A stretch of DNA of 64,000 nt from Crossaster papposus (taxonomy: Eukaryota; Echinodermata; Asteroidea; Velatida; Solasteridae): contig JBAIAA010000657.1 in the NCBI GenBank assembly GCA_037893245.1, positions 682,001 through 746,000 of the forward strand, in the 5' to 3' direction. A program made the position numbers and the translations under genes. A model generated the notes under the pieces. The model had not been told where the DNA came from. It did no database searches and was given only the letters and a program-made list of their open reading frames with translations. Below are positions 20,801 through 47,800 of the stretch, piece by piece (the first letter of the stretch is position 1; each line of letters starts with the position of its first letter).

Positions 20801-23800
20801 TATTTATTTCCCTCCCTAAAAAAACCACCATTAAGCAATCTCAACTTACAACTGTGAGACCATCTTGCTTAACTAGGGCCTGATGACAACCCACACAGCC
20901 CCCCTCTCCAACTTTATTTTCTGGTCCCGTACACCTGCAAAAGAAATTGAAATCGAAGAAAGATAATGGCAATAATTAATAAAGATGTCTAACAACTTTT
21001 CAATGTGCGTATTGGGTTGAGTGTTTATCAGTAGTGCATCCATGGTGCAGTACAAATCCACGTAAATGTTTTTTCTCTGCATACTTGATGGACTTAGCTC
21101 ATATTGAGAGCTCAGCACGCACCATTTTTGCTGGTAGAAAAATCAAGTCTCAACTACAAAGGTTTATTAGCTTTGAAAAAGTGCACATTTGTTTACAAAA
21201 TAAACATTGATAAGATTTGACTTCTCGATTTTCGGTCATACAAAGATGAATACACTCTGCTGCTCAAAACTAAAATCTGCTGATAAGCACACAAAATGAT
21301 GACCAGCCAAAATTCCATGTCATGTCATGTATTTTATTCTCACCCCTTCTCCATGACACAGTTGCTGTGACACAGTTGGCATAGTCCGTTCGCGTCTGGA
21401 TACTTTAAAATTGGGCATTTGCCACGGCAGAACGGACCATCTTGCACATGTAGGCACTCGGTACAGTTTTGGGGACCCTAAGAGAATGATTACAAAAAAT
21501 CATTCACAATATTGACCGAAATGACGTTTTGGCAAATTAAGGTTGTTAATATGTGAGCGCTATGATGGATTTTAATAAAAGAGCACCCTATACATCCCAA
21601 GTAATCAAAAGTTAATCATATAGTTGCAAATCAAGTGAATTGTGACAAAAGATATCGTTTCCTTGTGATACTGTTTGTTTCCACAATTGTTTGAGACCTG
21701 ACCCACTTGCGACCGACTTGCGACCGACTTGAGACAGACTACAGATGACCTACCGGCCCACGGCACTTTCCCTTGCATTCAGGGTCACAACGGGCACAGA
21801 TAGCCGGTTTGTCAATTGTGCCCTCAAACACTTCGTACCTGTAAACAGAAGAAAAAAATCAAAATTTCAAAAAAGAAATTTAGTCTTCTCTGACATTCTA
21901 TCAGATCATAAATTGTATAAATAAAAACTAGCATTTGCTTTTACTACCAAAAAGTTCATGGCAAGGTCATGAGACTTACTGCGTCAAACTGTCACATTGT
22001 TGTATGCAGGTGTCGTCCAATTGAGCATTTTGACACCGGGCGCACTGTTTCGGACCTGCACCCCAACAGCCAATGGGGGCGCACTGTGCATCACAAACCA
22101 GACGTTCTTCAGCTAATGTGGAGAGAATTTCACCACCCAAAAAAAATTGCACGTTAAATTTAACATAAAAGATGTGTGTTGAATAAATAACCAATTAGAA
22201 TAATGATGAAGATTAAAAAAAAAAATTGAGTTCTAATTAGATTTTTTCCATATTTGTATTTTGCAAAGCAAAATTGACAAGGATGGGTTGCAACATTTGG
22301 AGTTATTCCCTTTTCTTTGTCTTGATTGGGTGTGTGACTTGTTGGATTTTTTCTTTTGATGTTTGAGAGTAAATCAGATGTCATAATTTTAATGTACAGT
22401 CCATGGAAGTTCACTACCTCATTGCAAAGAACACAAATAAAGTCCCAAAATTGCTATGTAACTTTACATTGAGAATTTGACAATTTGTTCCCCCGTTTGA
22501 TGCGAACTTCTAGTCATTACATCAAAAGTTCCTCTTTCAAAAAAATATAAAATCTGTGACTTTTTCATGGATATTTTTGCAGATTTGCAGATTTGCAGAT
22601 TTGGAATTGGTTGTCAGTTTTGCATTTTGGACTAGATTTTAGTGCCATTCGTAATATTCTTCTGTCGTTTTACAATAGTGTTTTAAAATACTATTTTGTA
22701 AACTTTAAACCACATTTTGTTTTAAGTTATTGTATACCACCTATAATGCTGTATTGACTTAGGGACTACCCAATGCCTACCAACAAGGCAAGACATATCT
22801 TATTGTTGTAGCTTCTAGCTCAAGATTTAAGAAGAAGAAGAAAAAAAAAGGTTAAGACAGAAAAATACATTAATACAGTTTTGTATTGACTAAGATTTTA
22901 AAGAAAACCCAATCATTCAAAAAAGAACCACCCCCCCCCCCCCCCCCCCCACACACCCATTCCGAAAAAAAATAAAAAAATAAAGAAATAGAGAAATAAA
23001 GAAATAAAGAAATACTTTATTTTTAATAAAATAACATAAAAATGGGGTTTTTTTTGCTGGATTCCCGGCAGGCATAAACAACATTTGTTTTCATGCAAAG
23101 AAACTCTCCCTCGATATGTAGAACTCTTTTATTGTTGACAAGGTTGTTTTTAAAAAAAAGAACAGAATGAAACGAGATTTCTGTGTGGTTGAGTCCAGTC
23201 TAGTCTTGGCACTGTGTAAGTGACCTAGTTCAACTCAACTTCCTTTTATTGAAGAAATCTGTCATTTTTTACATTTCACACAAACAATCTTGTCAAAGAA
23301 AGAGTGCTTTATCAGAAGATGAATCCTTTGCATCATAATAGTGTTCCACAAATCACTGCCCATAAATCATTTCCAAAATAGACCCTTGTTACAAAATATA
23401 GCTATGTGTCTAGTTCCTTGAAGACAACACAATGCCAAATCAATCATCCTGACAGCAGTGACCAGCCTTGAATTTTCAGCGACCCAGATCACAACAAAAA
23501 ACATTTTATAAAAGTGCAGAAATTACTGGTGGTGTCAAGCTGCAAAAGAGCTTTGAAATTAGATATGTCCATAGTTTTTGAAGCACAATAAATGTGCAAA
23601 CATGTTTTTCGCAAAAATGTTGCCAAATTAGATGAAGTGTTTCAAGATTGTAGGAACAGAATCATGGTCACAATGACGCTAACAAACGTCTAGAATCAGA
23701 AGGATATAACATGGATTTGTAATGTATTAATCCACATGCGTCATACTTTAAGCCGTACTGCTGGTGCACTATGATGTGTTAATGGCTTGTTGCACAACAT

Positions 23801-29800: not shown

Positions 29801-32800
29801 ATTGCTTTTCAACCTGTACACAAATTCAGGCTGCATTTGAGCAAAATCTGGCAGACAACGTAAACAATTAGTTCAATTGTTATTTTGTTGTTTCCCCTTG
29901 ATTGGTCAGGAGCTCTGTTGGAAACTCTTACTTGTTTTCTTTGGTAAGTTTGGTTATCAATGATTATGATTAAAGTTAGGCATTACACAGGCAATCAGGC
30001 ACTAGTATTCATTCACATAATTTTTTTTTCTTCTGGCATTTTCAGTATATACATGTGTATACATATAACCATCTGAAGCCTAGTGGTCCACACAAACAAA
30101 AAACGAACAAGCACACCTCCACCACCCAAAATTACCTATCAATGGATGGAGAATCCTCCTAGAAGAAAAATGATACCAAAAAAAATCTCGATTTGGTCCA
30201 GTAGTCCTCAGACCCCATCTTGGTATCATTTTTCTTTCAGTAAAATGCGGCGGAAGCACGCTTTGTCCATTTTTGGTTGCCACCACGTGTATAAGATGGC
30301 ATTAACTGTGGAGAAATCTCACGTATGTGACCCGGCAAAGTGTTCTTTATACAAGTTTATTTAATCAGCAAAAAAAGGTTGATGGGTAAGTCTATAAGGA
30401 AACAGAAGGCAATAATAATAGTTAAACATCAAACTACATGTGTAATAAGTATAGGAAATAGGAAAGATAACTCAAGTTAAGTCAACATTAAATCAAATAA
30501 AACCTTAAACACCTTAAATTCTTTAGGTAAAAGTAAAAGTAGAGAAACATAATTATACCCTTTAGTCAAAGATAAAGTTGTTTCTTAATCCACCTAATTA
30601 GATATTCATGACAACTCTAGAGTCCAGCCAAGAACACTAAAAAACTCCTGGTCATTGCTATACACAATAGGCAGTTGCCCAAAGGACAAATACATACTAA
30701 TAAGCTAGGGGGTAGCCCTACTAGCAGCCTTGGCTATAACTTAAACAATCCCCACAGGGGGCTCTCTTATGCAGGTTGATGTGCACTGATCACATAACGA
30801 TTAGCTGTACACATACCCACACAGCACAGTACATGTATCGATATACACAGAGTTGTGTGATGTAGCTATGCCCATTATCGATATGCAACTTTAACTACTT
30901 GTCTCACACTCAGCTATGACCCTGGAGGTTCCTAACAAATTCTACCTGCTGGTATACTCATTAACTCAATAGTGCTTCCAAGCTAAACCACAAAATACAA
31001 TCTATCCATGATGCATGTACGAAAGTGCACATGTTCTAAGGAGTAGTTTCCAAAGTTGGTAAAACACTAAGCGAAGGATTCTATGTGAGTAATCTATATC
31101 CCGTAAATAACAGAATGAAATATATCTCGACCACCTCTGAATACGTGAACAAATAAAGAATAGGAAGCTTGGTAAAAGTAATTATAAACTTATAAACTTA
31201 ACCTAGCAAGTTAAGAACTTTGCCTGAAGCAAAGTGAATCAAGTAAAACGAGTAGAAGAGAATACCAAAATACAATTAACTTGAACCTCAAATGAAACTT
31301 ATACAGGCAAACCCTAGTGGGCTGGCCCAACAGTTTCAGGTATCTAATACCAAAAGTGGTCAACATATCTGAACAATTAAAATGCAATACATCATCTTTC
31401 TAAATAGTAATAACACAATATAAATTGTAGACTAGTAATAATGAGAAGGAAGGAACTATTTAGTACTTACAGAACAAGGATAGGAAAGGATCACTGGTTT
31501 CTGCTTTATAGGAGTGGAGCTTGCAAATATCTTCTGTATCACACAGTGGTAGTTGATAATGGAATGAGCTGATAGCTCAGGCTGACCACACTGTAGGGCC
31601 TAAGACCCTCGGTGGGTGGTTGTTGCTAGGGCAACCAGTGGGCCTACCTTGTACCATGCTGGTACCACTGATCTGATATCGTCTTAAAGGGGCAGTACAC
31701 TGAAAGTGCCTGGTCACAATCTCCTCTGCTAGCCTATTGGGTTCCACACCAATACTGGTACTGTGAGCAACTAAAATTAATCAAAAACTAAAACAAAATG
31801 GATATAGCTACACTTGATAAAGAAAATTATAATAGACTTCGACTATCTGGATACTGTACTACAGTTCTTGATTGTTCGTTTATAACTGCGGTGTCTCGAG
31901 GGGTGTAGTCAACACAACTGCTTGCTGTAGGAAACCCTCAAGCCATATTTCTAGTCTGTCGCTCAGAAGGGCACTGTTCTCTGGTGTGAATGTGGTTGAC
32001 GTCTCCGTGTGAACTCGCTTGTTGGACGCCTTAGGGAGGTGGAAGGGATTGTGGTGTTTACCGGCATTTACACGGGTTGATCGTCTCCCCGACTCACTTA
32101 TGGGCTCCCTGGAGGTTGTTCCAGTAGCTTTTGCGGTCTTGACAACTGGAGTTGGGGAGGGCTGTTGAGTGTCGTCTGTACACTCGGGTGCAACAGGGAC
32201 TTCGCAGTCTATAGTTTCATGAAGGAGACTAGTGTGGTGGGTACCTAGAACTGGAGACACAATATTGGGGGCTTCAGGTACTGTAGCCTCCTCTACTACG
32301 TTCAAGCTCTGGGGTTCATCTGGTGTTTGCAGGACATCTGTAGTGTTAGACATCATCGGATCAGGGAAGACTGCAGCCACAGCAGGCTCCGCTGCTATGT
32401 GTGTGGCATCGGGTTGGATGATAGCACTTGCCATCTTAGATCCTTCTGAAAAAGAACTCGCCGCAGGTTTTGCAGGACCCAGTTCTGGGTAACTGAACTG
32501 TACCACAAGAGTCGCTTTGTCCAGGTTGTCCTGGTCCTTCCTCTCGGGACCCGCTGGAACGACCTCTGATGACACTCTATACTTCTCTGTCTGCCGGGGA
32601 AGTGTCGAGTTGGCAGGCTCCTCTGCTGTTTCAGAGGACTGGGGTGTCACTTCCTCCTGATCATCATCACTAAGGTCCGGGACAATTTCCTTGGTGTCTA
32701 GAATCTCGGTTCTGGTGACTCGCTTCAGTGGTCCAGTGCCATCTGCCAGCTGAATCTCGTACACATTGTCTTGGGGTTGTGATATGACACGATAGGGGGT

Positions 32801-35800
32801 TGCTTTCCAGTGATCTGAGATCTTGTTTCTTCCAAGGGGGTGACTTCGAAGGAGAACTCTGGTACCGATGGTGATGCCTTTGTCATTTGCCCTAGCATCG
32901 TTGCGCTTGCACCTGTTGGCAATCTTCACCTCCATCCTTTCCTTAGCTGATGCAGCCGCGCTTCTCAATCTCTGCTGATGTTGCTTCACCCACGCATCTA
33001 GATCTGGTGTTGGTGTGGTCTTTGGCTCTGCTAACCCAAACATCAGGTCGATTTGTAGGGTTGGCTCTCTTCCCATATAGATGAAGAAAGGTGACATGCC
33101 GGTTGATGCGTGCGGCGTGCAGTTGTATATGAAGACCAGTTCCTGCAGATGTTCCGGCCAGCGCCGCTTCTGTTCCGAGGGTAGGGTGCGAAGTAGATTG
33201 TGAAGGGTGCGATTAAAGCGTTCGCACTGCCCATTACCCTGCGGGTGATAGGCAGTCGTCCGGCTTTTGACTATACCGTAGACAGAGCACAGGTCCTTTA
33301 CGAGTTGGGATTCAAAGTTTCTCCCCTGGTCACTATGGATGCGCCTGGGAACACCATACTTCTGAAACCACTCCTTGACCAGTACCTTTGTGACAGTTGA
33401 TGCCTTTTGGTCACGGCACGGTACTGCCAAGGAAAACTTACTGAAAACATCGGTCATGACCAGTATATTTTCCCGACCATCAGAAGATTTTTCCATTACG
33501 GTGAAGTCGATAGCGAGGACATCTAGGGGATGCTCAGCCAGAAGTGTTCCCATGGTGGGTCTGATATTAGGAGTTGGTGCCTTGGCAACTGTGCATCGTT
33601 CACACTTCTTGCACCACTTCTCTACATCTGCAGCCATCCCCGGCCAGAAGAACCTTCGTTTGACCAGCGCTAGGGTGCGCTCCTGTCCCTGGTGTCCCGC
33701 TTGATTGTGAAGTGCTGTTAGTGCCCTCGGCTGTAGTTTGGCAGGCAAGAGCATTTGGGTTCGATCACCTTCAACAGGATCACATGAATGAAGATAGAGG
33801 ACACCATCCTTCTCCTGAATCCTATCCCACTTCCGCAGGAGGTTTTTTGCCGCTCTGGTCTCGTGTCTCATGTGATTTGCAGCTGGTCTCGTGCCATGTT
33901 TCCAGAACACACAGAACCTGGAGATTACTGGGTCTGCATTCTGCAGTTGAGCCAATTCTGCAGGAGGGTATTCTGGCAGGGTAGTCATCGCTGGTGGGGC
34001 CTCTACCGCAATGGCTGAACGAACACTGCCGCAGGTTGCACTAATGGTTGCCTCTGCAATCTCTCGTAGTGATGTTGAGTTGGTCGCGTCTGATAGGGTC
34101 TGTTCTGCGTGAGCAGTCTGGCGACTCAGGGCATCAGCATTGGTGTTTAATCGGCCGGAACGATACTTGATCGTGAAGTTAAATTGGGCAAGCTGGCTCA
34201 CCCACCTCATCTCCACTGCAGCAAGCTTGGACGATTTAAGATACGACAATGGGTTGTTATCAGTGAAGACTGTAAATTCTGCTCCGAGGAGATAATCACG
34301 AAACTTCTCTGTAACAGCCCATTTGAGAGCCAATAGCTCAAGCTTCATCGAGCTGTAGTTGGACATGTTCCTCTCTGGTGGTCGAAGACTGCGACTAGCA
34401 TAGCTGAGGACTACCTTGCCGTGTTCCTGCTCTTGGGATAAGACGGCGCCCAACCCATCCAGGGAGGCATCTGTTTCCACGATAAATGGTAGTCTGAAGT
34501 TGGGGTAACCAAGGATGGGTGGGGATGTCAGTCGTAGCTTTAGCTCTTTGAAGGCCTTGGTGCAGTCTAGGGTCCACTGTCGCTGAAATTCCTGCTGTTG
34601 GCTTGATGATGGACGCCTCCAGGCTGCCCCCTTCTTGCACCCTTGCTTTGTGAGGAGTGCATGGAGCGGTGCTGCTATTTGACTAAAACGCTTCACAAAT
34701 TTCCGGTAGTAGCCAGCTATTCCAAGGAATGCTCGCAACTCTTTCTCGGTTTGGGGTTGTTTCCAGTCACCAATGGCCTCTGTCTTGGCAGGGTCCGTAG
34801 CGATACCCCTTGCAGAGACAACATGGCCTAAATACTTACATTCCCCCTGGAAAAAATGGCACTTCTTGGGTTTCAGTTTTAAGCCATGTTGTCTTAATCT
34901 CTGGAACACCACTTCCAGCCTCTCAAGGTGTTCCTCGAAGGAGCTGGAAAACACCAGAATATCGTCAAGATACAGAAGGAGACTCCCGTAGTTGAGGTCA
35001 CCGAGTATGACCTCCATCAGCCGCTGGAAGGTTGCCGGGCTGTTGCTGAGTCCGAATGGCATCCGGACGTATTCGTAAAGGCCACCAGTGCCTGCACGGA
35101 AAGCTGTCTTCGGGATGTCCTCCTCAGCGACCGCTACCTGGTGGTACCCCTGTACCAAGTCCAATGAGGAAAACCTTTTTGCACCTCCTAGGGAATCTAG
35201 GGCCTCGTCGATCCTTGGGATGGGGTAGGCATCCTTCCTCGTCTGCTCATTCAAGGCCCGATAGTCAACGCAGAGGCGTATACTACCGTCCTTCTTGCGA
35301 ACGATGACCACTGGGGCAGCATATGGGCTGGTGGAAGGTCGGATGATTTTCTGCTCCAGCAGTTGTTGCAGATGGGCCTTGACGTCTGCCATTTGGTGTG
35401 GGGGAATTCTACGGTGGGGCACACGGACTGGGTGTTCATTGGTGGTGGGGATCTTATGGGTTACAGTGGTTGTGAAGCCCAAGTCATTCTCTCCATGGGA
35501 AAACACATCCCTGTATTTCCCCAAGATTTCCATCAGTTTCAGCCGTTCATCGTGGTCTAATTCTGTCTCTTCGAGATTGACGTCGAAGGGCAGAGGCTCG
35601 AAGGGCAGGGGCTCGGTGTCTGGTTGCCCTTTCGTATAGAGATGGTTGGATTTCACCTCCCTGACATCTTCCGTATCAAGGTGGATGCCGTCGCCTGTCT
35701 CGTGGATAGTACCAGAGCTTGATTGGAGGACTTGAATGGGGGATACGATGCCGATCCGGCTCTTAGGCTGCAACCACACGTCCTCCTCGCTTACGTTGAC

Positions 35801-38800
35801 CAATTGGGCAGACACTGTACCATTCTGTGAGAGGGAACATGTGTCGATCAGAGCTATGTTCTTGGGGAGGTTGCCAGTACCACCACTGACAGCCTGGGTG
35901 AGCACTTCTTGGGGGCCACTCCTCAGTTGTCTCGTGGAGCAGCTCACCACCTTGACACTATGGGCAGGGACACAGATTGGCGTTTCTCCTTTCAGTCGGG
36001 CGAAACCGGACTTTGCTCCATCCCGTTCGGCAATCTCATACGCCAGTAGCGCTTCTGCCCATCGAGGATTTTCCTCTGTTTGTGTCGCTTTTAGGTAGTT
36101 GCCGCCATATTTTTCCTTCAAGGCTTCCCTCACTTCACTTATGACGTTACATCCGAGCAGGCCAGTAGGTTGGGAATCTGCCCGAGAAGTCTTGGAGACT
36201 AGGACTCCTACTTGACTGAGTTGAAAACCTAGGATTTCCATCTCCAGCTCTGTGTAACCAGTGTACGGCAGTTCCATTCCATTTGCCGCATACACCTTCA
36301 GCCATTTGGTGACATCTTGCACAGCAGGCTGTAGGGGTGACAACTTGCTGAACACCGTCTCTGGTAAGATGGTTACCTCACTCCCAGTGTCGAGGACGAA
36401 GCGGACTTCCTGTCCCAACACTGTGATGGTCACTTCCGGGCTCTTTGAAACTGCTCTATTAAATATGTCACTTCTGCTCCAATTCGTTGAGCCAGTTAAT
36501 CTTCCCTCCAATGCCTGGCTCGTTACTGTGGAGGGTTGGCGTTTGGGGAATTCTGGCATACTCGTTGAGATGGGTTGAACGGCGTGGCCTCGGGCCAGTT
36601 TGGGCGGGAAGCATGGGCTGATGTAGGGAATTCCCTTCGAGGTCTTGGGGGTTGCGGGCAGTATCGAGCGATGTGACCAACCTCGTTGCAGTTGTAGCAG
36701 GTTGGCGGGCCTCTGCTTACCCTGGTGGGGCCAGGGGTCTTCTGGTGTGACAGGAGTAGGGAAACCTGTCCACAGAGCTGATTCAAGGCCTCCTGGGTGG
36801 CCTTTAATTGGGTGGCCTGCTGATCCAGCTGATTTTGGAGACTAATTTCCGTGTCTTCTGTCTTCACCTTCGCTGCACGAGCCTCTGCAATGGTGGGTGG
36901 CGGGGGGCTTTCCCAGGACATGACCTTGTTTCTGAGGTCAGCAAACTCAATTCCTGCGTGTTCTTGGGTGTATCGCCTGACCTCTCTGCGTAGGGATGCA
37001 TCAGCCAGGCCTGACGAGAACCTCTCGTTTAAGATGCCGTCTTTATTATCAAGTAGGGGACTGCCCTCGGGTGAGGCGATCTCCACCTTCCTTAGCAACT
37101 TCAGCAGGTTCAGGGAGAACTCCTGAATGGACTCGCCCCCTCTCTGTCTTCGGCCGTAGAAGTCTTCCCAGCGGGCAGACGGTGTTTCATGGCATGTGTA
37201 TGTCTGGAGAATATGTTCGATTATTCTGTCTGCGGTGCTTCTCTCGGAAGGGGGGCAAAGTCGGATCTCCGCTCGTGCACCACCAGTGAGGTGGTCGAGC
37301 ACCATCTGCGCACCCTCGTCGTCCGACATATCCTTAGTCAGCCGGCGCATATCTTCCGCCCACTCCCGAACTTCGGGATCTTTGTCGCTGGTTGGCCTTC
37401 CCGCCAGTTTCGTACCCCGGTCTCGAGGCACGACTACTATTTTTGGCATGCTGGCTTTCCCTTTGTCGCTCTTCATCTCCTCCAGCTGTGCCGCCATCAA
37501 CTTGACCTGCTCCTGTAGTGCCTCCATCCTCGTTGTTGGTCACGCCACCAACCCTTTTTTTTTTGCTTTACTTGTAATCCTGTCTACGACGCATGTGACC
37601 CGGCAAAGTGTTCTTTATACAAGTTTATTTAATCAGCAAAAAAAGGTTGATGGGTAAGTCTATAAGGAAACAGAAGGCAATAATAATAGTTAAACATCAA
37701 ACTACATGTGTAATAAGTATAGGAAATAGGAAAGATAACTCAAGTTAAGTCAACATTAAATCAAATAAAACCTTAAACACCTTAAATTCTTTAGGTAAAA
37801 GTAAAAGTAGAGAAACATAATTATACCCTTTAGTCAAAGATAAAGTTGTTTCTTAATCCACCTAATTAGATATTCATGACAACTCTAGAGTCCAGCCAAG
37901 AACACTAAAAAACTCCTGGTCATTGCTATACACAATAGGCAGTTGCCCAAAGGACAAATACATACTAATAAGCTAGGGGGTAGCCCTACTAGCAGCCTTG
38001 GCTATAACTTAAACAATCCCCACAGGGGGCTCTCTTATGCAGGTTGATGTGCACTGATCACATAACGATTAGCTGTACACATACCCACACAGCACAGTAC
38101 ATGTATCGATATACACAGAGTTGTGTGATGTAGCTATGCCCATTATCGATATGCAACTTTAACTACTTGTCTCACACTCAGCTATGACCCTGGAGGTTCC
38201 TAACAAATTCTACCTGCTGGTATACTCATTAACTCAATAGTGCTTCCAAGCTAAACCACAAAATACAATCTATCCATGATGCATGTACGAAAGTGCACAT
38301 GTTCTAAGGAGTAGTTTCCAAAGTTGGTAAAACACTAAGCGAAGGATTCTATGTGAGTAATCTATATCCCGTAAATAACAGAATGAAATATATCTCGACC
38401 ACCTCTGAATACGTGAACAAATAAAGAATAGGAAGCTTGGTAAAAGTAATTATAAACTTATAAACTTAACCTAGCAAGTTAAGAACTTTGCCTGAAGCAA
38501 AGTGAATCAAGTAAAACGAGTAGAAGAGAATACCAAAATACAATTAACTTGAACCTCAAATGAAACTTATACAGGCAAACCCTAGTGGGCTGGCCCAACA
38601 GTTTCAGGTATCTAATACCAAAAGTGGTCAACATATCTGAACAATTAAAATGCAATACATCATCTTTCTAAATAGTAATAACACAATATAAATTGTAGAC
38701 TAGTAATAATGAGAAGGAAGGAACTATTTAGTACTTACAGAACAAGGATAGGAAAGGATCACTGGTTTCTGCTTTATAGGAGTGGAGCTTGCAAATATCT

Positions 38801-41800
38801 TCTGTATCACACAGTGGTAGTTGATAATGGAATGAGCTGATAGCTCAGGCTGACCACACTGTAGGGCCTAAGACCCTCGGTGGGTGGTTGTTGCTAGGGC
38901 AACCAGTGGGCCTACCTTGTACCATGCTGGTACCACTGATCTGATATCGTCTTAAAGGGGCAGTACACTGAAAGTGCCTGGTCACACGTATAAAATGAAG
39001 TGACCAATAACTGATTTGACTCCATTGTCTTTTACATTATAATCTTAATTTTTTTTTTAGATTTTCAGTCCTACCTTTTGGGACTGAGATAAATGTAAAG
39101 GAGAATCAGGGAAAAACATGTGGTTCATCATGATTTACAGACCTGTGCAAATAGACCTCAAAAACTTGTTATGACTACAAGAGATTTACAACACAAGGCT
39201 GTTAACTTGACACTCTCCCCCTCAACTTGTTTTTCTTCTTGCATGTAAATAAATGTTTTTAGGAAAAAAAAGAGATTTTAAATTTCTCCTTTAAAATAAA
39301 TATCTACTTTTTTTTTTTTATTGGATCACACAACAATTTCTAATCGAAACCAGACATTTCATTTGTTGTCTTTATTAACTGTAAACATATGTAGGTTGAT
39401 TTCACGCTTTATAACATTTATGATAAAAAAATTATATGAAAATGGGTCGTTATCATTAAGTGGGAAGAGTTCTCAGCAAGTGTGCCAAGGTTGCAGCCTT
39501 TTCAACCGTATGAGTACGTGCATGCATGACGGTGTGACATTCTGAAAGCGTTACCCACACAGATGCAGTCCACACAGATGTTGGAAAATGGCCCCAGTGC
39601 ACTGTATTGAGTACCAAAGTGTACCATGTACTACATTGCATTCTGGTTTATGTGCACAGCCTAAGTGTGTAAAGATATCAACCAAAACAAAGACAGGTGA
39701 CACTTCACTTGGGTTCTCTATCATAACCTAATACTGTAATGCAAGCTTTGTCAACAACTTCGTTTTGAAATGTTTCATATTATTACAAACTTTCTTGCCT
39801 GTATCTTTGATCCCAAATCAGAGACAAGCATTAAGTCAAGATATCTGAAGATCAAGATATCAAAACAAATTAGCCATAAAGCCTGCACCACTGTTATTAC
39901 AAACATATTAGCCCAATCTTACAAAACTGCTAATCTATGAGATAATTTTGATATTTTTTTTTTTTTGGATTGGGTCTCATATTATTAAATACTGACATAA
40001 TACTACATTTAGTTACATGTATATTGAAGATGCAGCCATTCCTGTTAAATGTAGCTTATTAATGCATACATTTCATATTATCTTATTATTCTCATGCATC
40101 TAAATTACTAGTGGTTATTCTACGCTTGCACAGGCAAAATGCAAGCAACTTTGTCTGCAGAGTCTTCAAGATTTTGAGAATTCATCCTAGATGTTTTGCA
40201 TGGTGTAAAGATGTGTATGTACATGTGCATGTCTTATACTGATCTGTATGTGCGATATTCAGATACATTTGTCACTTAGAATGACCTATTCTGGTTAAGA
40301 CGCATTGGAAAAAATACCACAATCGATGGGAAAGTGGGAATTGGAAAGTTACAAACAATTCAACTTTACTTCAAAAAAGAACAAAAAAACTAAACAAAAC
40401 AATGATAAGATAAGGATCCACAAAATTGACACAAAATTTATGAACTAAAATGTGGTAAGGTGTCTTTCACAAAAAATATATGGTGAAAAACAAACTGACT
40501 AAAAGCTGAAGTGTGCAATTTATATTGAAAATGAAAAGTCATGACTCTTTCATGTATTACAAAATTTCAAGAGACACAAAAACCGATTGGTGGGAACAGT
40601 ATTTTTAATTAAGGAGTTGAATATGCATGTTTTAAATCCCCCTTGTTTTTAGTTGACAGTGCAAGTTAGTGTCTTTTCATCAGACAGGCAACTTGGAACT
40701 AACCAAAAAATTAGAAATTCTGATCTTTGCAAGACTTGTACAGTGTTTTTCAATTTTCAGCTGATCCAAGGAAAAGTATGCCGTTTTATGTCGTGAAATG
40801 TCATTCTTTTAAACATGTGGTTCTGTATTATTGACTAATTTCTGCAAACCAAGATGCCAATTTTTTTTTTAACATGCATGCAATACAATAAATAAATTAA
40901 AAAAATAAAAAATAAAATAAAAAAATGTGCAAACAAATTCAGTTCAACTCATGCAGATGCCTGGCTGCAAGAACAACACAGATATCTGTTAGCTTGAAAT
41001 CACAACCAGGCACGATAAGTGGTCTGGAATCCTGACGTCCTATAAGACAGAGCGTTCATTTTTCAGGCCACGGTTTCATTATTCAGGCCAGTGAGGTCAC
41101 AGCTTCCTTGCAAGCAGTAGAATTATTATGAAGCTTTTAATGAAAAATCCAAAATGAAGGAAATCTGGACATGGACATTATTTGATCACACGTCTCGGGG
41201 ATCTTGCCCAAGAGCCAGATCGGTGCGAGGTTGAAAAATGGCGACTTACAAAATGATTTAAGATGTTAACTGTTTCTATGTTAACTTCTACGACTGGTGT
41301 TTTAGCGAACTCGGTTGTATCGTGATCATGTGACTTTTCTGATCAAGGTTTAACCAACAGTCGTGGTTGGTTGTCACTTGAAACAAATGCCAGTGAAAAG
41401 TTGAGTATGTTAAGAAATTACTTTCTCTTCAGCAAATACTGAAATAAGCCTATGTATCACAACTTCAAACTCTTGGTCGAGGATTGCCAAAAAAACATGC
41501 CCCTGTTCCAAGGCTCTAGATTTAGATCCGTACCGAAGGAAACACGCCCACCGATATCAATAACAGTATGGATTACAGATCACCTATTCAATTGGATGTT
41601 CACTTCACAGTCAGGCTGACTGAGAGCTTAAGGTTATGTTCTCTTGGATGAGCAAGATTGGATGGAATGCAAAGAAGGGATTTGTTCCCGGTAGAGCAAG
41701 CTGCTTTACAATAATTAGAAGTTTCTAATCAGGCAACGGGAAAAGAAACAGGATTGCTGGCATAACAGCACAGTCTCCCTTCAACCATAATGTAAGCCGG

Positions 41801-44800
41801 CCTGCAGTGGTGACGTTGGATCCATAAAGACAAAAGCATGCACAAGGGGTGGGGGAATGGGCATTGGGGGTGGAGGTTGAGGTGGGGACGTGGAGGGTGT
41901 TCATACTTACCACAGGCAGATTCCCGAAGGTTGCTCTCAACCGTGACCTCTCCGTCTTCGTGGATTATCCCTTGGAACATTTCTGCCTTGGCATAGCACA
42001 ACTTCGAGTTTAACTTGATATTGACGTTACCGTGCTCAATGGATTGCAAACTGATGAGATTGAGCGACCGCACAGTCGAGGACATGACCGATAGAGAGTG
42101 TTTGCTATCGGAACGACAACGCATTCATGCGGTCAACAGCGAGGGATATACGTCCATGAAAACAAAGACATTCGCGGGTTAGTACCACATCATTCAACAT
42201 GCAAAGTTTCTGCAATCTACTGGCAACCTTCGCTGTATTGGAATCCCTGCAACATTCCATGCTGAGATACAAACATGAATGACCCTAACTCCATAGGATG
42301 TTTGCAAATGTCTATTATTATTAGAGGATTCAGTACTGTTAGGGTTAAGCTTAATAACTGCAGATTCGGGACGTCATAAAAATAAAACAATGGTGCGTGA
42401 TCCTTTGGATCAGGTTCAGCTCCTGATGATTTCAGACTTGGGCAGCAGGTTGTTTTTTGTATGCTTTTAGTATTAAAAGGAATCTCTATTTCTTCCTGTT
42501 TAAGAAATGTTTTGCATTTTCAGCATGAAGTAAACGTTGCAGCTAGGAATTCCAATACAATCCAGGAAGCTCAACCGACCACTCTTCCCAAAGAGGTTCC
42601 AGGCCGATGTCATGCCGGTACGTGTGCATGCCAAGGTTATGGAGTTTTCCGGTACTTACCGTAATTTCCTGCGGACAAGACGCGCCTTATCTTTCGGTGC
42701 GCCTTATCTGATGTCGCTTGAGTTCAAAGTGACGGTCTTTGTGTGAAGAATTCTTTGAACGCGGCAATCTTACTCAATAATGCGGTCAACCAATTAGCTC
42801 AACTCTCCGGACATTGTGGCCATGTTCTCATTCTAACAATGCCGCGATGTGTTGATCCCCTACGACCGTGCTTCCCTTCCAACAATGCCGCGATGTGTTG
42901 ATCTCCCCCCCCCCCCCCCCCCCCCCCCCCCCACGGCCGCGCTTTTTATTCCAACAATGCCGCAAAGCGTTGATCGCCCCCTTTTTCTTTGTGGCCGTGT
43001 TTTCATTCCAAAAATGCTGCAGCAGAATTAATTGAACGTTTGGAAATCGTTTATTTATTTATTTATTGCCTCATTTTTGTTTGTTTGAGAAAGTATTATG
43101 GGAATTTAACGTAATATTATCTTATTATTCAGGGTGACTGAGTGATGACCCGACCAAGTTTCTTCAAAATGGGGTTACAGAAACCGCAATCATGCACAGC
43201 GTTGGCTTGATAGATTAAGGTTGGTATCAATTTACTTTGGTCTTTTCTTCATGCCTCTACACATGTGACCAGCCCATGGGGTTACAGAAACCGCAATCAT
43301 GCACAGCGTGGGCTTGATAGATGAAGGTTGGTATCAATTTACTTTGGTCTTTTCTTCATGGCTCTACACATGTGACCAGCCCATGGGGTTACGGTTTAAT
43401 TCATGCTTGGAATAGTGTGATCGTTCTAAGGCAACAAAATGACCCCTTTCAGGCAATGTACCTACACCGGGTGGCGCCTGGTGTTCTTTTGGGTGCGTTC
43501 AAGCATGCGCCTTATTCGGCGGTGCGCCTTATCTGTCGACGTTTGAATTTTTGGGGGGTGATTTTAGGGACCTGCGCCTTATCCGCCGAGCGCCTTATCC
43601 GCAGGAAATTACGGTACTGCACTCTTGCCCTGGTTTATTCTCATAAAACTCCACCGTTTGAGCTTCCAGGCCGGGCTGTTTCAAAATAATTTCCCACATA
43701 CCCTCGGCAGCATAGCACAAGTTGGGGTTTTGGTAAAACAGAACATTCCCCTTGTTGATGCACTGCAGAGAGGTCAACCCAAGTGACTCTATCGAGTCGC
43801 TGTTGAACAGCGAATACTGCTTGGGTCCATCGATGCTGGAAAAGTGTGGAGGTGGTGGGGTAGGTACAAAAGGATCAGACATATTGCTGTAATGAATCAG
43901 GGTAACATTGCATTTTCATTTGGATTATTATAGACATGTTTCTGTGTATTGTTCTTCAACTCTCAGTCCCTCCAACTTCGACAGTTTTGTTCTTTCTTCA
44001 AATGATGTAAACATTTCTCATCCACCTTAATCTGCATTTCCAGTGTCATTCCTATCAACATCCTTAACCCTAAAACTCCCTAATTCATCTTTGCTACAAA
44101 CCTACGGAAATCCGTTTCAAATCATTTGCTCTCTTAATTAATGTCACTTGTTTTAATAAATTTGTGTGTTTCCTGGAGAGAAAAAAATCGCCGAACAAAA
44201 CTCTGTAACTAATTGCATGTCGCAAAAGAAAGTTTTCATTACATAATACTGTCTTGGCATCCTTACAGTCTCAGCATGATAATATCACAACTCAAACAAA
44301 CTCTCTCTTTTTCTTCTCGCATCCTCTCGCTTCCTTGAAATACAATTCATAAATACCTTGGTAAGATAATAGCTTCTGATCTGAAAAACGAATATGGCCC
44401 CTAAACATGAACACAAAAGTCATTTTATTTTGTTAAAAAGTCTTTGGGAAGAACAGTGTGGAGACCCAGTCTTCACTGTGTGATAATAAACAGGTTTGGG
44501 GACAGCAGCCATCCCCCAACCCGGGCTTTATCACGCAGTAAAGGACCGGGTCCTCACACTGTTATTCCCTAAAGTTTTTGTCATTCGTTAACATAAACGT
44601 AACCAGCTCTCGCGTCTCTGCCTCCCCAAACTGCACCTAGTCCTTACCCATACAACTTCCGGCCGTAGATCTTCTTGAGGTTTCGTAGGAAGGTGAGGTT
44701 ATTGAAGTTGGCTTGATGGCTTTGTACCGTCACGAAGCCTTTGATCTTCTGCACAGTGCTCAGTTGCTCTAGCAACTCCAGGGTGATACCATTCTTCCCC

Positions 44801-47800
44801 AAAAATACATCCCTGGAGAGAAAACCAACGATACATATTCCCTTCAAGGTAATAGTATACCATTTGTTAGTTGTGCAATGTTTGTTTCTTTTCGTTTGAA
44901 GCAGCAAAGTTTGCTTAAAATCTAAAGACACAATGAAGTTTTATCGTAGTAGATGCTGTATATTCTAGAAAATAATAATATAAGATTAAAAATTCACTTC
45001 CAAATTTGAATAAGCCAGTTTCAGTATGACAACTACGCAGGTGCACAACAAGATTTGACAATTGTTCTTTTGCAATAACCATGCATCGTTCTAAAGCTTG
45101 TGCACACCAATTGCAAATTACAAACAAAAAAGAAAGTCAACAATTTTCTTCAAAATGACGACTAAATATACCCTTCAAATGAAGCGGTGCCGATGAAGAT
45201 GTTATTCCTGATGATGGTGCAATTAGATAATGCTTCATTGTCAAAGTCTTGCTTGTACAAAGCACCGACTGCACCCTCACACTCTACAATATTCAAAAGA
45301 AACAAATTTAAAAAAAACAATACAAAAAAAAAATATGAGTTTGGTACAACAGTAGACGGTACAATAGCAGGCGGTTATGAAGTGTTAGGTACTATTGGAA
45401 AGCTCTCTTTCTCGAGAATTTGAAAATACCAATATCTCAAGTTTCAATTTGTCCAACTTTACTCTTATATTGTGGTGACAGGTCACATAATGATACAAAT
45501 CTTCTTCACTCTGTTTGGCTTCCCCAGTATTAGGTGTGAACAGTCAGAGCGATACAATGTTAAAGGGTAACTGAAATTCAAAACTTTAATATGGCGAAAT
45601 ATATCCTTTAATAACGCTGAATACTTAACAAGTATTTTCTTGTAAGGTCATCCTTGTCTTAAATTTATTATCTTAAATAAATACAAAACTTTAATATGGC
45701 GAGAAAAACGTTTTAATAATGCTGAATACTTAAAGGTAGTATACACCATTTGCAGATATCGAAAATATTTACTACTGAATTATTAAGTAATACCTTACTC
45801 AATTGAAAGTAAATAATGATTCTAGGCATTCAGCAAAAGGATTGCGCTAGATATCCTGTAATTATTCCCAAAAAATGAATTTTATAGAGACAAATTCGCT
45901 CTCGCCGTCCGGCGAGAGCGAAAAAACAAAGATAACATAAGAATAACTGCTCGACCCCGGTTGAAAACAAACGCTGTTTTTCGTGCTTTTTTCGGCATCC
46001 ATGATTGTAAAACTTCGGAAAAGTCAGTTAAACGATATTTACCATGAAATACAACCCCCCAAATCTACCCATTCATGATAATTAAAGCAATTACCGATGG
46101 TGTATACTACCTTTAACAACTGCACAAACTTCATATTTGTTTATGTTTGCTCATTAATCGTGACCCTAAAATGAAAAGCAATATGCGCCGTGCCCCGCCC
46201 ACAAAAGATGACGCCACGGTAAGAATATAGCGTGGCTATACCAGGCTAAGCCTAGCCTTGAATACAAGGCTGCACTGTATCCACAGCGTGGGATCATCGT
46301 TTGTCATACCACCAAACGTGTACATAGCCTGCAATGCATTATTATAGAGAACCAGCTGAGTATGTATAATAATGCATTGCGGGCTATGTACACGTTTAGT
46401 GTTGTGGCAAACGATGATCCCATGTTGCGGATACAGCATAGCCTTGTATTCAAGGCTAGGCTTAGCCTGGTACAGCCACGCTCTATTCTTACCGTGACGT
46501 CATCTTTTATGGGCGGGGCACGGCGCATATTGGTTTTTATTTTAGGGTCACGATTAATGAACGAATAGAAACAAATATGAAGTTTTTGCAGTTGTTAAGT
46601 ATTCAGCATTATTAAAACGTTTTTCTCGCCATATTAAAGTTTTGTATTTCTAGTACCCTTTAAGATAATAAATTTAAGACAAGGATGACCTTACAAAAAA
46701 ATCAGAAACTTTTCTAATTTCACATTTTTCGCTTGGCAGTCTTAAGCACATCACTGAAAAAAAGTAATTCAATGCTAGAAAAATACCATTTGGCACAGAA
46801 GCGAATGTTAATAGCATGATCCTAGTTGGGCCTGTGATAAATTGTCAGTCAGCCTAACATACCTTTGGCGCATGGACCATCACATTCGACACATTTGTTT
46901 CCACTTTCAATGGTTCCTATCGGACAATCATTGATACAGTTGTCGCCTTCTTCTAGTACATTATCTGTACACATTTTGACAATTTTTTAATATTCATTGT
47001 TGGATATTATTTAAATATATTCAAATATATATTATTCAAATATTCCAGTGATGTAGTAAAAGGAAGACACTTAATACTAACCGGTGTTATTTTTTTTCAG
47101 GAGCTGGGTGGTGCGTGAATGTATATTCATGAGAAAGAGCAATGACAACTCATATACGTTAGAGAACTATAAAGAATTATAAAGAACGGCTTCCTCAACC
47201 AACTCGCCAATAGCATAGTTGGTAAAGAGGAGAGCTATATAGATCGAAAGGTCTGCGGTTCGAATCCGACTTGTTAACGTTTGTCTTTTTCTTCTGCAAT
47301 GTTCTTATGGGTTATTTTAATCATTGAACAAGGCTGAAGGGAAAACCGGGTTAGGGTACATAAGTTTCTTGAAAAATACAACAAGAACCGCTACACTGGT
47401 TAGTTTATAGTGACTTCCGTAGTAAAACTAGCTTCCCTCGGTGATTGCAATGTGGATGAAAATGGAATGCTCCATGGATCACCAAGGGAGAATAGTTTTA
47501 CTACATCACAAGATTAAGGAGTAACTACGCGGTATTTGTTTTATAACACCCACAGATTCTGCTTGATTTGGGGTAACTTGCAGGTAAATTAACGTACACA
47601 CACAATTCTGCTCAGAATTTTCCAGGACAAAATACTGAAAAGGGCCAAGACGTCCCTTGGCGATGGCGATGGCGTAAAGGGCCGGTGAATAACTGTACGG
47701 TTTATTAACCTGCATCGCACCGCTAAGGACGTCTTGGAACCAAGACTAATGATAAAGCCGAGTCTTGAAGTTATCTTAGGAATTACACGAGACGAGTGTC

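Follow-up and report, generated by a model that had tools for sequence, protein, structure and literature searches.

The locus considered here, from the sea star Crossaster papposus, raises the question of whether a single EGFR gene can exchange the second half of its ligand-binding domain III by choosing between two tandem exons, 11a and 11b. The stretch of DNA analysed, referred to below as the window, comprises 64,000 nucleotides of contig JBAIAA010000657.1 (C657) in assembly GCA_037893245.1. The genome searched comprises about 1.02 Gb in 1841 contigs and holds a second copy of the locus on contig C450.

An EGFR gene present in two copies

The minus strand of the window carries, in order, exons for L1, furin-like repeats, L2 and domain IV, followed by an EGFR-type kinase. 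The kinase is represented by six ordered tblastn matches (window 16077-13466, E 7e-7 to 5e-22). The window copy was searched with a human EGFR kinase sequence; rows with E above about 1 were taken as chance and dropped, and some weaker rows that overlapped others were likewise set aside. The Pfam profiles PF01030 (receptor L domain) and PF14843 score above cut-off when the C450 exons are joined. Two L domains, furin-like repeats and then domain IV form the EGFR/ErbB architecture, and the gene is identified by these similarities as an EGFR/ErbB receptor tyrosine kinase gene of a sea star. Additional cysteine-rich, domain IV-like exons lie between exon 14 and the kinase (window 17845-16951); they extend the ectodomain, as in fly EGFR.

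In pieces (same-orientation pieces longer than 300 bp were counted), C450 and the window are colinear over window 8.4-58.8 kb, at 83-97% identity. A genome search found several L-domain loci twice, and the haplotypes of the assembly look uncollapsed. Because these loci are doubled, C450 is interpreted as the other haplotype of the EGFR locus; a recent duplicate is possible in principle. Exons 11a and 11b are both intact on C450 and stand in the same order as in the window, which makes an assembly artefact unlikely. They are 553 nt apart on C450 and 1513 nt apart in the window.

The two copies also differ in their introns. Between 11b and exon 12, the intron measures about 20 kb in the window and 8.7 kb on C450, and about 8.9 kb of it (window 30082-38988) has no C450 counterpart. 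The intron that precedes exon 9 holds a stretch of about 1.1 kb (window 45563-46660) which includes a long palindromic repeat; this stretch has no C450 match and is probably another inserted element. A 31-bp segment in the C450 intron after 11b (C450:59411-59441) duplicates the beginning of exon 10. It is identical to the window exon 10, differs by one base from C450's own, and is possibly templated filler DNA.

Two further contigs bear on the nature of the genome. C1841 is the mitochondrial genome, 16,330 bp long, with a COX1 gene that is open under the echinoderm code. AAA codons, read as Asn in that code, stand in it at sites occupied by Asn in other animals. The genes from nad2 to trnQ agree in order and strand with the sea-star table of PMC6262923, according to which this order is common to all eight asteroids compared; the genome is accordingly that of a sea star. 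A 4.6-kb inversion covering 16S, ND1, ND2 and part of the tRNA cluster is described as separating starfish from sea urchins (PMC3308324). Contig C8 carries cox1 genes without internal TGA codons at 2.87 Mb and 5.21 Mb, which were read as bacterial in type; the contig, several Mb long, perhaps stems from a symbiont or a contaminant.

Table 1. Features of the locus, in window coordinates except for the window itself
Feature	Position	Strand	Details
Window	C657:682001-746000	forward strand of assembly	
Exon 10, constitutive, encoding the first half of domain III (L2)	44648..44812	-	placed by joining; PDB match with either exon 11 (C450 versions)
Exon 11a, putative alternative second half of domain III	43618..43835	-	218 nt (221 nt on C450)
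Window-specific internal donor in 11a, G/GTATGT	43696..43702	-	U1 duplex -7.3 kcal/mol
Start of the intron after 11a, six bases GTACCG, donor split by transposon	43612..43617	-	GTAAGT on C450
Transposon copy	42657..43616	-	960 bp, 27-nt terminal inverted repeats, TA target duplication; absent from C450
TGCATG upstream of 11b	42198..42203	-	on C450 too
TACTAAC, candidate branch point of 11b	42178..42184	-	about 75 nt upstream, within a 103-nt AG-free stretch
7-bp hairpin around the AG of the 11b acceptor	42088..42111	-	weak evidence
Exon 11b, putative alternative second half of domain III	41911..42104	-	194 nt, donor GTAAGT
TGCATG downstream of 11b	41837..41842	-	on C450 too
Exon 12, start of domain IV, takes either exon 11 in frame	21980..22112	-	translation of joins
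Exon 13, domain IV, frame confirmation	21754..21838	-	translation of joins

Exons 11a and 11b as candidate interchangeable exons for the second half of domain III

Both exons were found where the original prediction had placed them (Table 1). Their assignment to the second half of domain III is borne out by searches of the PDB, in which each exon alone matches EGFR domain III: 11a (C450 version) at residues 411-465 (E 4.3e-10) and 11b (window version) at residues 412-475 (E 2.2e-6). Since each finds this domain by itself, the framework that they had been said to share, and which amounts to 21 invariant columns out of 73 over four sequences, is not due to chance. Joined to exon 10 (C450 versions), 11a reaches an E value of 1.5e-23 and 11b one of 7.4e-18, the best chain being 3i2t, which we take to be Drosophila EGFR. 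The Pfam receptor L domain scores almost the same on the two C450 joins (65.4 bits with 11a, 65.1 with 11b) and is then followed by domain IV. Structure prediction for the single exons gave mean pLDDT values of 44.0 (11b) and 61.1 (11a), too low for use.

The phases match as proposed. Exon 10 ends with two bases (GG) and either exon 11 gives one (C); each in turn leaves one base, to which exon 12 adds two, and the lengths of 11a and 11b are both 2 modulo 3. The claim had been that either exon alone keeps a frame of 29 exons, and it holds for exons 10 to 13 as joined: the translations of 10-11a-12-13 and 10-11b-12-13 are open in the window and on C450. Inclusion of both exons, or of neither, breaks the frame with an early stop in both copies, again as anticipated. 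The 10-11a-11b-12 join stops inside 11b, after 158 residues in the window and 159 on C450, and in the 10-12 join 55 residues are followed by a stop, which is the first full codon of exon 12. With either exon, six residues lie between the last cysteine of domain III and the first cysteine of exon 12.

The ligand-binding face

Contacts of EGFR with its ligand have been described in detail. Asp355, Gln384, His409 and Lys465 are given as hydrogen-bonding to EGF in PMC5819829, and His409, Phe412, Val417 and Ile438 as site 3 contacts in PMC2834686; Ser418, Lys443, Ser468 and Arg470 appear in a simulation table of PMC3554757. Exon 11 aligns to EGFR from residue 411-412 onwards (11b to 475), and thus covers part of the ligand-binding face. 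Of the two contacts that the original prediction had assigned to the exchanged part, Lys465 does lie in exon 11, but His409 maps to the boundary of exons 10 and 11.

At positions 412, 417, 438 and 465, exons 11a and 11b carry Y/H, N/M, L/N and E/T, respectively, so that all four contacts differ. When 418, 443, 468 and 470 are added, 6 of 8 contacts differ on C450 against a background of 29/49 in the ungapped core, the contact rows around 463-470 being less sure because the alignment is gapped there. This comparison of the C450 exons revealed no clear enrichment of 11a/11b changes at ligand contacts. In the loop before Phe412, 11a is five residues longer than 11b and four longer than human EGFR. 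Judged from the alignment, much of the second half of this face is swapped between the two exons, to no clearly greater degree than other parts of the exon.

Age and relatives of the two exons

The C450 versions of 11a and 11b are identical at 23/64 positions. Compared with human EGFR, they score 23/65 and 23/64, and human and fly EGFR share 24/65. Synonymous sites between 11a and 11b have reached saturation, with 33.6 changes in 40.8 sites; the window and C450 versions of either exon are no more than a few percent apart. As the two exons are about as unlike each other as each is unlike human EGFR, their duplication is, by this measure, old. A small L-domain tree, with 4 of its 8 inner branches lacking resolution and several long branches, groups 11a with 11b at moderate support (90/86) and places them beside the L2 domain of human EGFR (89/89). 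From the sequences, the duplication probably postdates the separation from vertebrates.

A genome-wide search with 11b returned four matches, on C657 and C450. The search with 11a returned seven, on the same two contigs and in three weaker L domains (E 0.013) at C1120:294997, C549:22450 and C1097:155302, each contained within one open frame; their sequences read like insulin/IGF receptor-like L domains. No third copy of the 11a/11b pair was found in the whole genome beyond C657 and C450. Second-half L-domain matches with E of about 8e-4 to 1e-3 were also seen at C1120:252256, C711:40163 and C1097:83363.

Variation between the two copies

Exon 11b differs between the window and C450 at only 1 of 194 sites, compared with 63/1522 in three flanking intron stretches that served as the reference (P 0.0026), and is constrained between the copies. 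Exon 11a shows no measurable constraint in the same comparison with the intron (7/218 sites, P 0.32, plus a 3-nt gap). The constitutive exon 10 is as variable as 11a (6/165 sites, P 0.47). The window version of 11a is one residue shorter than that of C450 and has a Cys in place of a C450 Arg.

The changes in 11a are six nonsynonymous and one synonymous, against 22:28 in seven other exon segments of the gene (P 0.05). The same 6:1 ratio is not different from that of L1a and exon 10 (15:10, P 0.37), and relaxed selection on 11a was therefore not taken as a conclusion.

A transposon in the splice donor of exon 11a

Absent from the original prediction was a transposon that interrupts the donor of 11a in the window. 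It begins one base after the end of the exon. The empty site on C450 reads GAGTGCA/GTAAGTACC, and the junctions in the window read GAGTGCA/GTACCG on the left and TA/AGTACC on the right. The comparison of these three sequences identifies the TA of the splice site as the target duplication of the transposon. In the window, the GT that follows 11a belongs to the transposon junction, and the native splice site there is broken.

The transposon belongs to a large family, with at least 77 matches from the 40 scored of 1344 candidates. Among those scored, the best other matches have 97-98% identity over the first 332 bases. Five further loci that were inspected have the same start base and four different flanks, one flank being common to L024 and L027. 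The four of these with both ends in view measure 1.71-1.77 kb, so the window element is a shortened copy; its longest frame has at most 98 codons.

Duplexes with U1 were compared for five donors and an internal site of 11a. The 11a donor reaches -3.3 kcal/mol in the window and -7.0 on C450; exon 10 reaches -9.7, 11b -11.7 and exon 12 -5.6 kcal/mol. The internal site (Table 1) owes its window form to a single base difference found only there, since C450 reads GCATGT at this place, with a duplex of -4.2 kcal/mol. Its use is predicted to give an exon of 134 nt that stays in frame and lacks 28 residues, including the closing Cys of domain III. A split 11a donor combined with an internal donor specific to the window points to an allele that is b-only or has a defective a form. 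The product of the window allele is thus probably restricted to 11b, or includes 11a only in a truncated form that uses the internal donor, and this allele may by itself be unable to make two receptors.

Splice signals and the proposed exclusion of one exon by the other

Both exons have consensus splice sites on C450; in the window, the 11a donor is interrupted as described above. The acceptor of 11a has 16 pyrimidines in 20 positions, and its donor on C450 is GTAAGT. The pyrimidine tract of the 11b acceptor is weak (11/20), the second lowest of 16 acceptors of the gene, which were placed by eye. AG-free stretches as long as that of 11b precede 0.7% of 3289 AGs, and the other 14 acceptors of the gene have a median AG-free stretch of 65 nt. 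Since long stretches are usual in the acceptors of this gene, the one before 11b marks a real acceptor. TGCATG on both sides, as found around 11b, occurred in 73 of 11243 random C450 placements (0.65%), and the motif was one of eight counted post hoc, so it is only a hint of a splicing signal.

A hairpin at the acceptor was considered as a feature specific to 11b and discarded, because 3 of the 16 acceptors have one (L1a, F3 and 11b), against 1.7% of 1775 AG sites. Pairing of RNA between introns as the means of exclusion was likewise rejected; in the three cases compared, 6, 31 and 40 of 40 shuffles reach the same strength. Steric exclusion fails on C450, where the intron between the two exons is too long: in view of minimal intron sizes, 553 nt exceeds the range of this mechanism. 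None of the known exclusion mechanisms looked for (short intron, competing RNA pairing) was found at the locus, and they are not obligatory in every case; distal signals or regulators may act here. The weak, presumably regulated 11b acceptor may instead compete with the stronger 11a acceptor. Such competition, together with the decay of frame-breaking products, is the mechanism that we infer to fit best.

The preferred explanation and its alternatives

From the sequence evidence, it is quite probable that the locus is an EGFR gene with tandem, anciently duplicated and mutually exclusive exons 11a and 11b, whose products would differ in ligand affinity or preference, and that the window allele yields only the b form or a truncated a form. 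Exon 10 would join either 11a or 11b and then exon 12 to give one open receptor, and messages with both exons or neither would be removed by nonsense-mediated decay. Cells would then express either the a or the b receptor, and the two would differ in ligand affinity or preference. We infer this ligand switch from the exchange of much of the binding face in its second half. The transposon splits the 11a donor of the window haplotype and would probably leave the b form or a truncated a form; the C450 allele would be able to make both receptors, and with regard to the a isoform the animal would be heterozygous.

The splicing part of this explanation would also hold if the exons were alternative without any change in ligand choice, the exchange setting affinity, ligand independence or ectodomain stability instead, as in a weak or decoy receptor. 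Such an outcome is rather unlikely, though it deserves serious consideration. It would agree with contacts that are not clearly more altered than the rest of the exon (6/8 vs 29/49) and with the longer loop of 11a before Phe412 (+5 residues relative to 11b, +4 relative to human EGFR), whereas the four exon 11 contacts named in PMC2834686 and PMC5819829 all differ in character. Less likely still, 11b might be the sole working exon and 11a a decaying relic, with the transposon in its window donor as a further step of decay. A relic would explain why 11a is no more conserved between the copies than nearby intron (7/218, P 0.32), why its changes are six nonsynonymous to one synonymous, and why its window allele is one residue short, has an extra Cys and an interrupted donor. 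However, 11a has kept a fully open frame in both copies despite synonymous saturation since the duplication, its C450 version has an intact donor and acceptor and surpasses 11b in the PDB match (4e-10 vs 2e-6), and the constitutive exon 10 is equally variable (6/165, P 0.47).

Two other possibilities carry little weight. Double inclusion or skipping could be a regulated event that produces a short secreted receptor fragment or switches the gene off. The early stops are alike on both copies, which agrees with this, but nothing seen in the sequence speaks in favour of it, and transcripts of both kinds are usual targets of nonsense-mediated decay; we consider it very improbable. That the exons derive from two EGFR genes through an assembly artefact or a collapsed paralogue is hardly credible. 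An assembly of about 1.02 Gb with doubled L-domain loci, in which C450 may be a recent duplicate, leaves some room for such an error, but the exons have the same order on two separate contigs that are colinear in pieces over 50 kb, and L2 exons of this kind were found on no other contig.

Relation to known systems and significance

Like the EGFR/ErbB genes of human, Drosophila and C. elegans, the sea-star gene combines L1, furin-like repeats, L2, domain IV and an EGFR-type kinase; unlike them, it has a duplicated L2 exon. To our knowledge, no such L2 exon pair is known in ErbB genes. In the literature, alternative L2 exons of EGFR/ErbB were absent from the titles and abstracts among the matches listed, a scope that leaves out most subscription journals. 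PMC9767951 was considered as a precedent and set aside, since its mutually exclusive exons lie in g42168 and EGFR appears in the references only.

Substitution events between tandem duplicated exons are reported in PMC9741552 to be rare and mostly ancient, the annotated totals being 236 for human and 154 for D. melanogaster. The 11a/11b pair resembles the events set out there in that homologous tandem exons exchange one region; the words EGFR, FGFR and echinoderm do not occur in the main text of that article. A closer parallel is the IIIb/IIIc choice of FGFR1-3, where tandem mutually exclusive exons (8 or 9) are described as changing the ligand spectrum (PMC3238399, PMC12828087). In both cases, tandem exons, here putatively alternative, encode a ligand-binding part of a receptor tyrosine kinase. 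The exchanged part is an Ig domain in FGFR1-3 and L2 (domain III) here, where the pair is known from sequence. Since the receptor family, the fold and the ligands are different, the 11a/11b switch would be an invention independent of FGFR IIIb/IIIc.

A broader reading is tentative: the EGFR of sea stars, perhaps of echinoderms in general, may long ago have invented an FGFR-like switch, of which the wild transposon allele would be a natural isoform knockout. If this reading is true, a single receptor gene stands in for several ErbB genes. Vertebrates have four ErbB genes. EGF signalling was widened in vertebrates by receptor gene duplication via genome duplications, as described in PMC2834686; if the sea-star gene is spliced as its frame predicts, the echinoderm would have gained receptor diversity by duplicating one exon. 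The pair would then offer a direct test of ligand choice in the second half of domain III, in a receptor type whose structure and contacts are known in detail, and the transposon allele would provide animals without one isoform, with no gene editing needed.
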